A stretch of 41,160 nucleotides of DNA from Desulfobacteraceae bacterium (GTDB lineage Bacteria > Desulfobacterota > Desulfobacteria > Desulfobacterales > JALSRD01), in NCBI GenBank assembly GCA_027061725.1, contig JAMOVG010000198.1:1-41160 (forward strand), in the 5' to 3' direction. Positions 13,202 to 33,095 of the stretch are shown one piece after another. Both the position numbers and the translations under genes were made by a program. How positions within the stretch are numbered: position 1 is the first letter of the stretch; the number at the start of each line of letters is the position of its first letter. A model generated the notes under the pieces. That model was not told where the DNA came from, did not search any database, and saw only the letters and a list, made by a program, of their open reading frames with translations.

Positions 13202-15580
13202 TCACCGGTCGATGTCCGGCAGAATGTAGTCCACGGACCCAATGATGGCGATTAGGTCCGAAAGCGACCAGCCGCGCACCATTTTCGGAAGCACCTGCAC
13301 GTTGGCAAAACCCGGCGCCCGGATGCGCATGCGATAGGCGCACGTGCCGCCGTCGCTGACTACGTAGTAGCCCTGTTCGCCGCGCGGAATTTCGCACGAG
13401 GCGTAAGCCTCGCCGGCCGGGATGGTCGGGCCGCGGCTGACATTGACGAAGTGGTGGATCAGGCTCTCGATGTCGCTGAGCATCTCATCGCGCTGGGGCA
13501 GGGCGTAGCGATAGTCGTCGGTGCGGTAGCGCCCTGCCGGCATATTCTCCGCGGCCTGTTCGATGATCCGGAGGCTCTCGCGCATCTCGGCCACGCGCAC
13601 CAGGTAACGGGCGTAGCTGTCGCCGTCCTCCGCCGTCGGAATCTGGAAATCGAAATTTTCGTAGCCCGAGTAGGGAAAAGCCTTTCGCAGATCCCAGGCC
13701 AGGCCGCAGGCCCGCAAGTTGGGGCCCGTGACGCCCCAGTCCACGGCGTCTTCGCGCGAAAGGCGGCCGATCCCCTGGGTGCGGGCCTTGAAGATGGCGT
13801 TTTTCGTGATCAGGGCTTCGTAGTCGTCGAGCTTTTCCGGGAAGATGTCGGTAAAGGCCTTGACCGCTTCGCGCCACCCGTCGGGGAGGTCGGCGGCCAC
13901 GCCCCCGATGCGGAACCACGAGGGGTGCAGCCGGCCCCCGGTGATCATCTCCACGATGTCCATGATCATCTCGCGCTCACGGAAGGTGTAGAAGGTGGGT
14001 GCCATGGCCCCGGTGTCGTGGGCGAAGGTGCCGAAGTAGACCAGGTGATTGCTGATGCGGAACAGCTCGCTGAGCATCACCCGGATGCACTGCGCACGGT
14101 CGGGCACCGTGATGCCGGCCAGCTTTTCCACGGCCAGCACGTAGGGCAGGTTGTTGGCCGCGCCGGCCAGGTAGTCCACCCGGTCGGTGTAGGGGATGAA
14201 CTGGTGCCAGTGCTGGCGTTCGCCGATCTTCTCGGCGCCGCGGTGGTGGTAGCCGATCTCGATCTTCAGATCGGTGATCTCCTCGCCCTGCAAAGCCAGG
14301 ATGAAGCGGATCAGGCCGTGGGTGCTCACGTGGTGGGGGCCCACGTTGAGAATCAGTTCGTGGTCGTCGTCGTTGCCGCCCAGCAGGATGCCGGCGTCCA
14401 GGGGCTGGTGCTCGGCCGCGTCGCGGGTGGTGTAGGGCGGCATCTCGGTGGCGCGTCCGGGGTAGTCCTTGCGCAGCGGGTGGCCCTCCCAGTCGTGGGG
14501 CAGCAGGATGCGCCGCAGGTCGGGGTGGCCGGTGAAATCGACCCCGAACATGTCGAAGATCTCGCGTTCGTACCAGTCGGCCGAGGGCCACAGGTCGCAG
14601 ATGCTCTCCGCCGTCTGGCCGGCGGGCAGCGGCACCTTGAGGCGCAGGCGCATGGCCGGATCGAGGCACAGCAGACTGTAGACCAGGGTGGTGTCGTGGG
14701 CCGGCCTCCGGCGGCGGGCGGTCTCGTCGATGGCCGTCAGGTCCTCCAGACGTGCGAAACGCCGGGGGGCCTCGTGCTTGAGGTAGCGCAGCACCGCCTT
14801 GAGCGAAGCCGGCGAGGCCTCGAAGGTGGCCATGTCCGCGGTGGGGGAGACGGGGCGCACGGCGTCGCCGAAGCGCCCGGCCAGCTCACGCGTGAGGTTT
14901 TTTTCGGCCGTGCCCGGTTCGATGCGGGCGGCCGCCGGCGTCCACATGAGCCGGTCGCGGCTTTCGAAGAACCCGGGGGGCACGGCGGCGCTGCCCCGGA
15001 TGGGGATGCCCTGCATGCCCGGCCCGCGGGGATCCCGCGACTTGCTGCGGCCGTCCACCAGTACCGGCTTTTCGGTGCCCTGGCTGCCGCCGCCCAGGTG
15101 GAAGATGCGCCCGCCGGGGCGCTCGGCGGCGATTTTCTCCTGCAGCATGGTCAGGCCCTTTAGCACCGCCTCGGGACGCGGCGGGCAGCCCGGGATGTAG
15201 ACGTCCACCGGCAGGATCTGGTTGACGCCCTGCACCACGCTGTAGACGTCGTACATGCCGCCGCTGTTGGCGCACGATCCCATGGAGATCACCCAGCGCG
15301 GTTCGGCCATCTGCTCGTAGAGGCGCAGCACCACCGGGGCAATTTTCTTGAAGACCGTGCCGGCGATAATCAGCAGGTCAGCCTGGCGCGGCGAGGGCCG
15401 CAGCACCTCGGCGCCGAAGCGGGCGATATCGTAGCGCGACGTGAAGGTGGTGGCTTCTTCCACGAAACAGCACGACAGCCCGAAGAACATGGGCCACAGG
15501 CTGCGGGAGCGTGCCCAGTTGATCAGCGGGTCGACGGCCCGTGTGAAGGCGGCTATTTTCTTCGGCTGGTCGGCCCCCAC
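13202..15580 (-). CDS. nuoBCD: Fused NADH-quinone oxidoreductase subunits B/C/D
   Basis: One frame contains NuoB ([25 protein letters not shown]), NuoC ([24 protein letters not shown]) and NuoD ([15 protein letters not shown] ... [12 protein letters not shown]) with no stop; GTG start at 15580 preceded by GGGAGG. Confidence 0.93.
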
Positions 15581-15966
15581 TCGAGCCCTCCCTTTTTCCA
15601 GATGTAGACCAGCCCGTAGAGCAGGATGAGGATGAAAAAAGTCATCTGCAGCCAGCCGGCCCAGCCCAGTTCGCGGCTGGCCACGGCCCAGGAGAAGATA
15701 AAGGCGCCCTCCACGTCGAAAAGCAGGAAGAAAATGGCCACCATGTAGAACGGCACCGGGTTGTGCAGGCGGGCCGCACCGGTGGGGATGACGCCGCTCT
15801 CGTAGGCACGCTGTTTTTCCACACCGGGCCGCTTTTCGCCCAGCCACGCCGACAGGAAGATCATGGCGCCGATGACCACCAGCACCACCAGGGCGTAGAG
15901 TACCAGGCTGAAGATGCCCGGGTGCCAGGGGGACAGAACGCTGGATACGGCGGCGGCAGATTGCAA
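15553..15966 (-). CDS. nuoA: NADH-quinone oxidoreductase subunit A (TTG start likely; frame open to 16029)
   Basis: [12 protein letters not shown]... [27 protein letters not shown] spaced before TTG at 15966; ATG alternative at 16029. Confidence 0.88.
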
Positions 15967-16040
15967 GGTCTTTACTCCGGCTTTCTGTTGATGACGAAAA
16001 GCCCTTACCGGAACACTACTGTGTGGCACGAAACTTCATA

Positions 16041-16068
16041 ATTAGACGATGGCCGGGTGTGCTGTCAA
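16041..16068 (-). promoter_or_regulatory. Candidate sigma70-type promoter of the nuo operon
   Basis: Minus strand TTGACA-16 nt-TCTAAT upstream of nuoA. Confidence 0.55.
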
Positions 16069-16086
16069 GTCAAACCTAAGGTGAGC

Positions 16087-16322
16087 GCAGGGTAATCGCA
16101 AGTAGCGATTGGCATGGAGGATACCGGGACCCTTCATGGGTTGCGTGCCCCTGGGGTTAAGGGGCGGGCAGGTATCGGCGGCGCGTCAAGAAAGGCGCGC
16201 TGTCGGAGCGCAAGCGCGCACCCCGCCTTTCAGCGCCGGCGGCTGGCGCATCTCCGCCGGGCCTCACGAAACGTGGGCGGCATCTGCCCGCCCCGGCGGT
16301 TCAGGCAACTTGCGATGGCCCT
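16087..16322. repeat. Structured dispersed repeat, copy 1 (E1)
   Basis: Outer IR CAGGGtaATCGCAAGTaG/CAaCTTGCGATggCCCTG; inner IR GGGGCGGGCAG (16161) / CTGCCCGCCCC (16284-16294); internal hairpins AAAGGCG...CGCCTTT and CCGGCGG...CCGCCGG; reverse complement aligns to 30886-31209. Confidence 0.8.
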
Positions 16323-16379
16323 GAAATGGAGCGGTTTTCATGTGAACCCTTTTTAACAACGTGAAACGCCCCGCTTTGG

Positions 16380-17828
16380 TCAAAGCAGGGGCGAGAGCAG
16401 GCGGGCCACCTTGACGGCCAGTTTGAAAAGCGGGCTGCGGCGATGGTAGTCGGCCATGGTCACGCGGATGCAGTTGGCAAAGTCGGTTTCCAGCATTTTC
16501 TCCACGTCGGCCACGAATGCCCTGTCGCTGACCACCATGCTGATTTCAAAATTGAGTTTCAGCGACCGGTTGTCCAGGTTGGCGGTGCCCACGGAAGCCA
16601 GGTCGTCGTCCACCAACATGACTTTCTGGTGGAGGAATCCGGGTTTGTAGCGGTAGAAGCGGATGCCGGGCATGGTGAACTGGGGCAGATAGGAGAACGA
16701 CGCCAGGTAGACCAGGCGATGGTCCGGGCGCAGCGGCAGCATGATGCGCACGTCCACACCCCGCAGAGCGGCCAGCTGCAGCGCGCTGATGACGGCCTCG
16801 TCGGGCACGAAGTAGGGGCTGACAATCCAGACCCGCTGCCGGGCGGAGTGGATGGCGTGGCAGAAAAACAGGCTGCAGGTGTCGTGTTCGTCGGCCGGTC
16901 CCGTGGGCAGCACCAGGATGTGCTGGTTGCCGGACGGGGCGGCCTGCGGCTGCCATTCAAGCTCTGGCAGCTCGTGGCTGGCCCAGTACCAGTCTTCCAT
17001 GAAGGACAGCTGCACGCAGGTTACCGAGGGGCCCCGGAAACGAGCGTGAGTGTCCCGCCAGGGACCGAAGCGGGGGCTGCGCCCCATGTATTCATCGCCG
17101 ACGTTGAGCCCCCCCACAAAGGCCACCCGGCCGTCCACGATGACGATCTTGCGGTGGTTGCGGAAGTTGATCTGGAAACGGTTGCGCCACCCCTTGCGGG
17201 TGTTGAACGGCCGCACGTCAACGCCGGCCTCGCGCAGCCGTTGCCGGTATTCCGAGGGCAGTTTGTGGCAGCCCACTTCGTCGTAGAGCAGGTAGACGGA
17301 AACACCCTGGCGGGCTTTTTCGATCAGCAGGGCCTGCAGCTCACGCCCGATTTCGTCATCGTGAATGATGAAGAATTGCACAAGGATATAATGCCGGGCT
17401 TCCCGGATAGCTTCAAAGATGGCACCGAAGGTTTCGTGCCCGTCGATGAGCAGTTCGGCGCTGTTGGCACCGGTGAACGGCAGCTGGGCCAGCTCTTCCA
17501 GGGCGCGGTAGCGGCCGGAGGCCCCGCGCAGGGTGGCCGAGTATTTTTCGGTATAGGCTTCCAGGCTGGCGATGATCTGGCGCAGTACCTGGTTGCCTTT
17601 GCGGCGGGCATTGACATATCCCTGAAACTTGTTGCGGCCGAAGATCCAGTAGAGCGGCAGGGCCGCATAGGGAAAGGTGATCAGGGAGACGGCCCACGCA
17701 ATGGCCCCCTGGGAGGTGCGCACCGTCATCAGGGCGTGGGCGCTCGACACGATGCCCAGCACGTGCAGCAGTGCTGCAAAAACGGAGATCAGCGCGACGA
17801 AGTGGGCGTGCAGGAACTCGAGGCTCAT
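16380..17828 (-). CDS. cls: Cardiolipin synthase (phospholipase D superfamily)
   Basis: Two HKD motifs: HRKIVIVDGRVAFVGGLNVGDEYMG and HQKVMLVDDDLASVGTANLDNRS; N-terminal TM segments. Confidence 0.9.
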   Translation of the reverse strand: MSLEFLHAHFVALISVFAALLHVLGIVSSAHALMTVRTSQGAIAWAVSLITFPYAALPLYWIFGRNKFQGYVNARRKGNQVLRQIIASLEAYTEKYSATLRGASGRYRALEELAQLPFTGANSAELLIDGHETFGAIFEAIREARHYILVQFFIIHDDEIGRELQALLIEKARQGVSVYLLYDEVGCHKLPSEYRQRLREAGVDVRPFNTRKGWRNRFQINFRNHRKIVIVDGRVAFVGGLNVGDEYMGRSPRFGPWRDTHARFRGPSVTCVQLSFMEDWYWASHELPELEWQPQAAPSGNQHILVLPTGPADEHDTCSLFFCHAIHSARQRVWIVSPYFVPDEAVISALQLAALRGVDVRIMLPLRPDHRLVYLASFSYLPQFTMPGIRFYRYKPGFLHQKVMLVDDDLASVGTANLDNRSLKLNFEISMVVSDRAFVADVEKMLETDFANCIRVTMADYHRRSPLFKLAVKVARLLSPLL

Positions 17829-29681: not shown

Positions 29682-29747
29682 TGACTGGATTTGGAATCGG
29701 TATTGTTTGGCGTCTAACTTACATCAATGGGAAAAAGGAGGAAACGC

Positions 29748-30794
29748 ATGAAGCACTTCACCCGTATTTTCGTCATTTTCGTCGTGGCGCTGGGGCTGGC
29801 CCTGGCCGCTCCCATGGGGGCCCAGGCCGCCAAGGTCATCAAGCTGCACCACCTCAACAAGGACGACCCCTTCGACAACCCCACCGGCGCCATGGCCACG
29901 GTTTTCAAGAGCCTGGTGGAAGCCGGCACCAACGGCAGCGTCCAGGTGCAGACCTTTCCCAGCGGCCAGCTGGGCAAGGACGCCGAGGTGGTCCAGCAGG
30001 TCAAGGCCGGCGTGATCCAGTCCGGCATCCACTCGGTGGGCGGCTTCGCCTCGGTCTACCCCATGATGGGGGTCATCGACATCCCCTTCGCCTTCCCCAA
30101 CATCAGCACCACTTACGCGGTCTTTGACGGGCCCTTCGGCAAAAAGTTTGCCGGCGATATCGAGAAGAAGACCGGCCTCAAGGTGCTGGGCTTCGGCGAC
30201 TCCGGGGGCTTTTTCCAGTTCACCAACTCCAAACGGCCCATCAAGACCCCGGCCGACATGAAGGGCCTCAAGATCCGCACCATGGGCTTAGACACCCACA
30301 AGACCATCATCAAAGCCCTGGGCGGCCAGCCTGCCGCCATCGCCTGGAGCGAGGTCTACACGGCGCTTCAGACCGGCGTGGCCGACGGGCAGATGAACCC
30401 CATTCCCATCATCGCCTTCGCCAAGTTCAACGAGGTCCAGAAGTACCTGACCCTCAGCGGGCACCTCTTCGCGCCCTACGTGTGGGTCATGAACCAGAAG
30501 TTCTGGGACAGCCTGACGCCGTCCGAGCAGTACGTCGTGAAGTACGCCGCGCGTTCCGCCATCGTGGCCGGGCGGGGCATGGGCCGCATCATCGAGGCCT
30601 CCGACCGCGGTCTGCCGGCGCTGGCCAAGGACATGCAGGTCAACGCCCTGTCGCCCGAGGAGAAGGCCAAGTTCCGCGATGTGGCCATGCCGGCCGTCAA
30701 GGAGCTGATTGTCAAGAAGTTCGGCGCCGAGGGCCAGGAGATGATGCAGGCCTTCCTGGACGCCATCGCCCAGGCCGAAAAGGCCGAAAAGTAG
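29748..30794 (+). CDS. dctP: TRAP transporter substrate-binding protein DctP
   Basis: RBS AAAGGAGG before ATG; signal peptide; GLKIRTMGLDTHKTIIKALGGQPAAIAWSEVYTALQTGVADGQMNPIPI. Confidence 0.94.
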   Translation: MKHFTRIFVIFVVALGLALAAPMGAQAAKVIKLHHLNKDDPFDNPTGAMATVFKSLVEAGTNGSVQVQTFPSGQLGKDAEVVQQVKAGVIQSGIHSVGGFASVYPMMGVIDIPFAFPNISTTYAVFDGPFGKKFAGDIEKKTGLKVLGFGDSGGFFQFTNSKRPIKTPADMKGLKIRTMGLDTHKTIIKALGGQPAAIAWSEVYTALQTGVADGQMNPIPIIAFAKFNEVQKYLTLSGHLFAPYVWVMNQKFWDSLTPSEQYVVKYAARSAIVAGRGMGRIIEASDRGLPALAKDMQVNALSPEEKAKFRDVAMPAVKELIVKKFGAEGQEMMQAFLDAIAQAEKAEK

Positions 30795-30859: not shown

Positions 30860-30885
30860 ATTTTCACAGCCGGGGTATCTCCGCT

Positions 30886-31209
30886 TGGCGGGGCAATTGC
30901 AAGGCTCCTCCGTCTTTGGGTGAAAGCCCCGTCTGCAGCATGACTCGACCGGGGCGGGCAGGCATCGCCTGTGCTCCGTGAGCCCCGGCGGGGATGCTCC
31001 GCCCGCCGGCGCTCAAAGGCGAGAACACGCTGCGCTCAGACAGCTCGCCTTTTTTAATGGGCCCCCGGCCTGCGCATCTTTTTCCCGCCGGTTCTCCAAC
31101 TGCGCACAGCCGACACCTGCCCGCCCCTTCCGCAGGGATGGGCCAAAGATAGCGAAGGACAATTGCCGCAAAAAATGTAGAAGGCTGCTTGCAATTGCGT
31201 TGCCCCGCC
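30886..31209. repeat. Structured dispersed repeat, copy 2 (E2), opposite orientation to E1
   Basis: Outer IR GGCGGGGCAATTGCAAGG / CTTGCAATTGC(gttg)CCCCGCC; inner IR GGGGCGGGCAGG (30951) / CCTGCCCGCCCC (31116); hairpins CCGGCGGG...CCCGCCGG and AAAGGCGAG...CTCGCCTTT. Confidence 0.8.
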
Positions 31210-31346
31210 TTGTCTCACCGGTTGACAGCGCCGGCCCACCTCCTGTAGTTTCAACCATCGCCGGCGGCGCAGGGGGCATCGGCCGGCAGACGATCCGCCA
31301 TCGGGCGGAAAACCGCCTACAGCCAGAGAAGAGAGGAAAGCCGGCC

Positions 31347-33095
<1,749 letters not shown>

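Follow-up and report, generated by a model that had tools for sequence, protein, structure and literature searches.

Diverged MITE copies of probable ISAs1 origin lie at a fixed distance upstream of predicted sigma70-like promoters in a Desulfobacterales genome

Two intergenic repeats in a 41,160-nucleotide stretch of a Desulfobacteraceae genome (contig JAMOVG010000198.1 of assembly GCA_027061725.1; the whole stretch is referred to as the window) raise the question of whether they are a mobile element or a structured RNA, and of why each of them lies just before a predicted promoter. As described in the first-pass annotation, the repeats E1 and E2 share homology and point in opposite directions, with 73-nt arms that are 79% complementary and a further 27 nt at 89%, and the outer inverted repeat, the inner inverted repeat and the AAAGGCG hairpin ascribed to them were all found to be present. 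Both elements had been located in the right places, their exact ends being off by 1 bp for E1 and by 3-7 bp for E2; the coordinates used here are given in the table, together with those of the neighbouring genes and predicted promoters. Within the same window, one open reading frame at positions 13202-15847 encodes a NuoBCD fusion (nuoB, nuoC and nuoD).

Table. Positions of E1, E2 and adjoining features in the window.
Feature	Position	Strand	Remarks
E1, MITE copy, 236 bp	16088-16323	-	ends CAGGGCCATCGCAAGTTGC..GCTACTTGCGATTACCCTG
E1 left target-site duplication	16324-16333	-	CGCTCCATTT (- strand); 7/10 identical to right copy
E1 right target-site duplication	16078-16087	-	CGCTCACCTT (- strand)
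Predicted -35 hexamer TTGACA, 19 bp past E1	16063-16068	-	promoter score 8.7
Predicted -10 hexamer TCTAAT, nuoA promoter	16041-16046	-	spacer 16
nuoA-containing ORF, first nuo operon gene, downstream of E1	15553-16029	-	NADH-quinone oxidoreductase subunit A from residue ~40
cls (cardiolipin synthase), upstream of E1	16380-17828	-	TIGR04265
E2, MITE copy, second outer subfamily, 314 bp	30889-31202	+	ends CGGGGCAATTGCAAGG..CTGCTTGCAATTGCGTTG
E2 left target-site duplication, CTCCGCTTGG	30879-30888	+	7/10 match to 31203-31212
E2 right target-site duplication, CCCCGCCTTG	31203-31212	+	read from sequence
Predicted -35 hexamer TTGACA, 19 bp past E2	31222-31227	+	read from sequence
Predicted -10 hexamer TGTAGT, glnS promoter	31244-31249	+	spacer 16
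E2 inner nested palindromic block (GGGGCGGGCAGG..CCTGCCCGCCCC) with AAAGGCGAG hairpin	30951-31127	+	inverted-repeat pairing
glnS-containing ORF, downstream of E2	30978-33095	+	family match starts at residue ~147; true start beyond E2
dctP, TRAP transporter substrate-binding protein, upstream of E2	29727-30794	+	

The search for further genomic copies by BLASTN, proposed with the original description, was carried out in the window's own genome, a sulfate-reducer-type Desulfobacterales (410 contigs, 4.07 Mb, 97.6% complete), and yielded 35 places for E1 and 57 for E2, far beyond chance. Of two models built on the right end, the covariance model gave 60 matches at E<=0.01 in this genome and the profile recognised about 75 places in the retrieved loci. 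E1 and E2 are members of a family with at least 60 copies in their own genome. Terminal inverted repeats (consensus CAGGGCAATCGCAAGTARC..GYTACTTGCGATTGCCCTG) are common to all copies, which vary in length from 91 to 314 bp, the shortest being about 91-96 bp. Inside the ends the copies are mosaic: the longer ones carry an optional palindromic block (GGGGCGGGCAGG..CCTGCCCGCCCC) in which a hairpin block (AAAGGCGAG..CTCGCCTTT) is nested, either block can be absent, and the outer parts fall into two subfamilies, E1-like and E2-like. Two near-identical copies consisting of an end plus its flank are located at contig ends (L067 and L074 on contigs C210 and C223), which suggests that the assembly is interrupted there by a longer repeat, perhaps a segment present in duplicate.

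Target-site duplications, likewise proposed as a check, were found to be 10 bp long and decayed in this genome. Among 34 of its copies, the paired 10-bp flanks agreed at a mean of 4.62 of 10 positions, compared with 2.60 (sd 0.24) for permuted pairings, and nine copies had pairs with at least 7 matches where 0.2 were expected; E1 and E2 have 7/10 each, and further pairs are AACACAAGGG/AACACCAGGG, CGCCACGTCC/CGCCACGTTC and TTCCCCTGGT/TTCCCCCGGT. In other genomes, duplications around elements with the same ends mostly match at 8-10 of 10 positions, and the copies studied here are therefore old. The copies are short, non-coding, bounded by terminal inverted repeats and dispersed in large number, as is characteristic of MITEs, and the suggestion of a MITE-like non-autonomous element was borne out by the terminal repeats, the 10-bp duplications and an ISAs1-family parent. 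At the nuoA locus of the only same-genus genome, the one genome compared for this purpose, the element is absent, but a different gene lies upstream and the locus is not syntenic, so that no clean empty site was found.

The parent was recognised by its ends. A pattern scan detected the end pattern in 22 of 293 Desulfobacterales genomes and also in Planctomycetota and Phycisphaerales MAGs, while the reversed pattern gave zero matches in the window's own genome and in the genomes with several copies. A search of 58 relatives with E2 found interior homology nowhere outside its own genome; what is shared with relatives is thus the ends only. Two elements of 1.3 kb with matching ends (L111 and L124) each contain a transposase ORF, and the transposase of L124 matches the NCBIfam model of the ISAs1 family (NF033564) at 427 bits as well as Pfam PF13808 and PF01609. 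On the strength of these matching ends in other genomes, MITEs of the E1/E2 type can be assigned to a putative ISAs1 parent: with the ISAs1 family they have in common the CAGGG..CCCTG ends, the 10-bp duplications and autonomous elements of ~1.3 kb in related genomes, from which E1 and E2 differ in having no transposase. None was found among the copies of their own genome, whose 410 contigs (97.6% complete) gave zero matches to PF13808, NF033564 or L124. A transposase in the same genome is not strictly defining for a MITE, as MITEs outlive their parents.

The position of the copies relative to promoters was analysed with predicted sigma70-like promoters (-35 and -10 hexamers, score of at least 7) in 58 unique flanks from this genome. 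Out of these 58 flanks, 27 had the -35 hexamer at an offset of 18-20 past the last base of the element (mode 19), compared with 0.23 in shuffled flanks. Across 80 offsets, 27 of the 41 promoter matches fell at 18-20 (p ~7e-29), 17 of them at exactly 19, about half of the copies having no good predicted promoter at 18-20. An ungapped logo anchored on the right ends displays TTGACA (+20 to +25) and TATAAT (+43 to +48), with no sequence conservation in the 19 bp between the element end and the -35 hexamer. E1 is placed 19 bp before the predicted -35 hexamer of nuoA and E2 likewise before that of glnS. The 10 bp adjoining the element belong to the target duplication, which puts the near edge of the original 10-bp target 9 bp before the -35 hexamer. 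In most copies the promoter is faced by the same element end, one reversed copy (L002) having it at the other end. The fixed spacing of ~19 bases suggests a jumping gene that used the transcription machinery as its address. This fixed promoter distance, the main feature of the elements, was missing from the first-pass annotation. A further copy (L010, contig C294, 348-625) has its inner palindromic block turned round with respect to the outer parts, and the promoter still adjoins the outer right end, so that orientation is set by the ends and not by the core.

We then scanned both flanks of elements in other genomes. The MITEs of other Desulfobacterales had 19 flanks at exactly 19 and 23 of 50 matches within 17-21 (3.8 expected), and for full-length ISAs1-type elements 12 of 21 promoter matches lay in this range (1.6 expected). 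Planctomycetota MITEs had 6 of 10 matches at offset 18, and 143-bp MITEs of Phycisphaerales 7 of 12 at 29-30, one helical turn further; for the Phycisphaerales SJ207 MITEs (L105-L137) the distance to the -35 hexamer was ~10.5 bp greater than in Desulfobacterales. Furthermore, among autonomous insertion sequences with perfect 10-bp duplications in two genomes (G259 and G277), nine of ten copies had a match of at least 6.5 at 18-20. The G259 genome harbours many copies of an intact 1458-bp ISAs1 element; both ends were in hand for 14 of them, and eight of these 14 combine perfect 10-bp duplications with a promoter (scores 6.7-8.7) 18-20 bp from the left end, which in those eight is always the promoter side. 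Of its other copies, L291 has no matching duplication and a promoter score of 7.0, and L257 has the promoter at offset 16. The spacing agrees in three further genomes (L168, L170 and L172). In a Planctomycetota genome (B36T1B5, L133, 3368-3625) a second end of the same kind starts right after the 10-bp duplication of the first, which indicates insertion into or beside an existing element.

ISAs1 relatives from outside this lineage served as a negative control for the promoter scan. Those from Aeromonas, E. coli, Nostoc, Citrobacter, Moellerella and a more distant member of the Desulfobacterota (G608, transposase 53% identical to that of L124) carry perfect 10-bp duplications, and none reached a score of 6.5 at 18-20, the best value being 6.4 in one Aeromonas copy (1 of about 16). 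Promoter targeting as a general property of ISAs1 was rejected, given the distant members without promoter placement; the placement is lineage-specific within the family. In a small transposase tree the non-targeting elements cluster with support of 86/93, a grouping that is only indicative because of long branches. One ISAs1-family element on an IncC plasmid of Citrobacter freundii (CP135470.1, L317) adjoins blaNDM-1 and has a perfect 10-bp duplication and no promoter at the fixed distance. Two records labelled as plasmids (NZ_AP026896.1, 4.9 Mb, and NZ_OL790696.1, 4.8 Mb) are probably mislabelled chromosomes.

Taken as a whole, the results make it highly probable that an ISAs1-family transposase once mobilised the MITE of which E1 and E2 are diverged copies, with insertion at a fixed position upstream of sigma70 promoters. 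Mobilisation by ISAs1 is supported by the terminal repeats, the 10-bp target duplications and the matching autonomous elements in relatives. Insertion in this lineage is not random: the near edge of the 10-bp target that the strand-transfer complex opens is 9 bp from the sigma70 -35 hexamer, on its upstream side, and after duplication the element end rests 19 bp from the hexamer, a distance established statistically from predicted promoters. The transposase presumably docked on promoter-bound RNA polymerase, contacting either sigma region 4 or the C-terminal domain of alpha, and would have struck the nearest DNA left exposed on the upstream side; the orientation of insertion is biased by the difference between the two element ends. 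The shift by about one turn in Phycisphaerales, which keeps the same face of the DNA, fits protein docking better than the reading of a DNA motif, though the transposase may read promoter DNA directly instead of contacting RNA polymerase. Placement upstream of a promoter and not inside it would leave the gene expressed and would let copies accumulate beside housekeeping operons such as nuo and glnS; with the transposase gone from this genome, the remaining copies are fossils.

A rival explanation is a domesticated regulatory module: a binding site or an insulator that would owe its spread to the regulation of promoters from a constant position upstream. The element end lies ~55 bp upstream of the expected transcription start, near the positions of class-I activators, orientation is biased toward the promoter, and both copies in the window are situated between the end of the upstream gene and the promoter of the next operon. 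However, each copy shows independent decay of its terminal repeats, the genes that follow E1 and E2 (nuo and glnS) are unrelated in function, intact autonomous insertion sequences elsewhere have the same spacing, and the target duplications demonstrate that the arrangement was made by insertion, which leaves a regulatory module very unlikely. Random insertion with survival only just upstream of promoters would agree with copies that are intergenic and leave genes undisrupted. Under such a bias, insertions farther upstream, or in the gap between two convergent genes, should be tolerated at least as well, yet matches drop sharply outside 18-20, and a peak three bases wide is not explained by survival. 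Moreover, closely related ISAs1 elements survive elsewhere without the spacing and recent copies with perfect 10-bp duplications are already spaced, so that survival bias has, if anything, a slighter chance of being correct than regulation.

The last alternative is that of a structured RNA family functioning in a folded transcript, with selection on structure, as the first-pass annotation had envisaged from stems that are retained while the arms differ. Folding energies are low (MFE z-scores against shuffles of -2.25 for E1 and -4.46 for E2) and the inner arms covary, 13 cells being changed on both sides compared with 3.2 in shuffles when a hand-drawn structure of nested arms is used. The retention of stems is thus true of the inner arms; it is not true of the terminal repeats, whose identity within copies (12.44/18) equals that between copies (12.43/18). 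The closing stem of a conserved RNA would show the reverse, and for this reason we interpret the covariation of the inner arms as the maintenance of DNA palindromes. Palindrome correction in replication, e.g. by template switching, explains it at least as well as selection does, and selection for DNA hairpins is possible. No match to Rfam was found, and an RNAalifold consensus of 14 inner blocks was essentially devoid of covariation support (covariation term +0.26, compensatory changes in only 4 of the 34 pairs). Deletion or inversion of blocks from one copy to another is free (L010), and the element abuts its promoter from the upstream side, not from the downstream side. A functional RNA is the least credible of these alternatives and very unlikely.

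Promoter-guided insertion by a transposase has precedents. The TnGBS/ISLre2 (p-MULT 3) and ISKra4 (p-MULT 4) elements insert 13-17 bp upstream of sigmaA promoters, their orientation is set by asymmetric ends and contact with RNA polymerase has been proposed (Guerillot et al. 2014, PMC3942029); TnGBS, ISLre2 and ISKra4 have Mutator-type transposases, and that study makes no mention of ISAs1. The ISAs1-type elements described here share with p-MULT 3/4 a fixed short distance upstream of -35 hexamers and differ in the distance itself (18-20 bp) and in the transposase, which is ISAs1 (PF13808 and PF01609) and not Mutator-type (IS256-like). In yeast, the integration of Ty3 by its integrase is guided by the transcription initiation machinery (cited in PMC3942029); Ty3 is a eukaryotic retrotransposon that relies on TFIIIB/TFIIIC, and its likeness to the placement of these MITEs is one of analogy only. 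In the literature searched, ISAs1 is not described as having a fixed promoter spacing, which is also absent in relatives outside this lineage, and no report of promoter targeting by the family was found in the open-access literature, although an earlier one may exist in subscription journals.

What is new here are ISAs1-derived MITEs with an insertion habit so far known from unrelated transposases. It appears rather probable that an ISAs1 lineage, independently of Mutator-type elements, evolved RNA-polymerase-guided insertion at distances set by helical phase (18-20 or 29-30 bp) in at least two phyla, seeding promoter MITEs genome-wide. In the literature found, promoter-targeted transposition in bacteria is confined to a few families of the Mutator type; with an unrelated second family of transposases that targets promoters at a different, phase-locked distance and has close non-targeting relatives, promoter finding by transposases becomes directly testable. 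In addition, the element end marks a promoter ~19 bp away and could thus be used for sequence-based promoter finding, and a class of intergenic repeats that could pass for regulatory RNAs would be explained.
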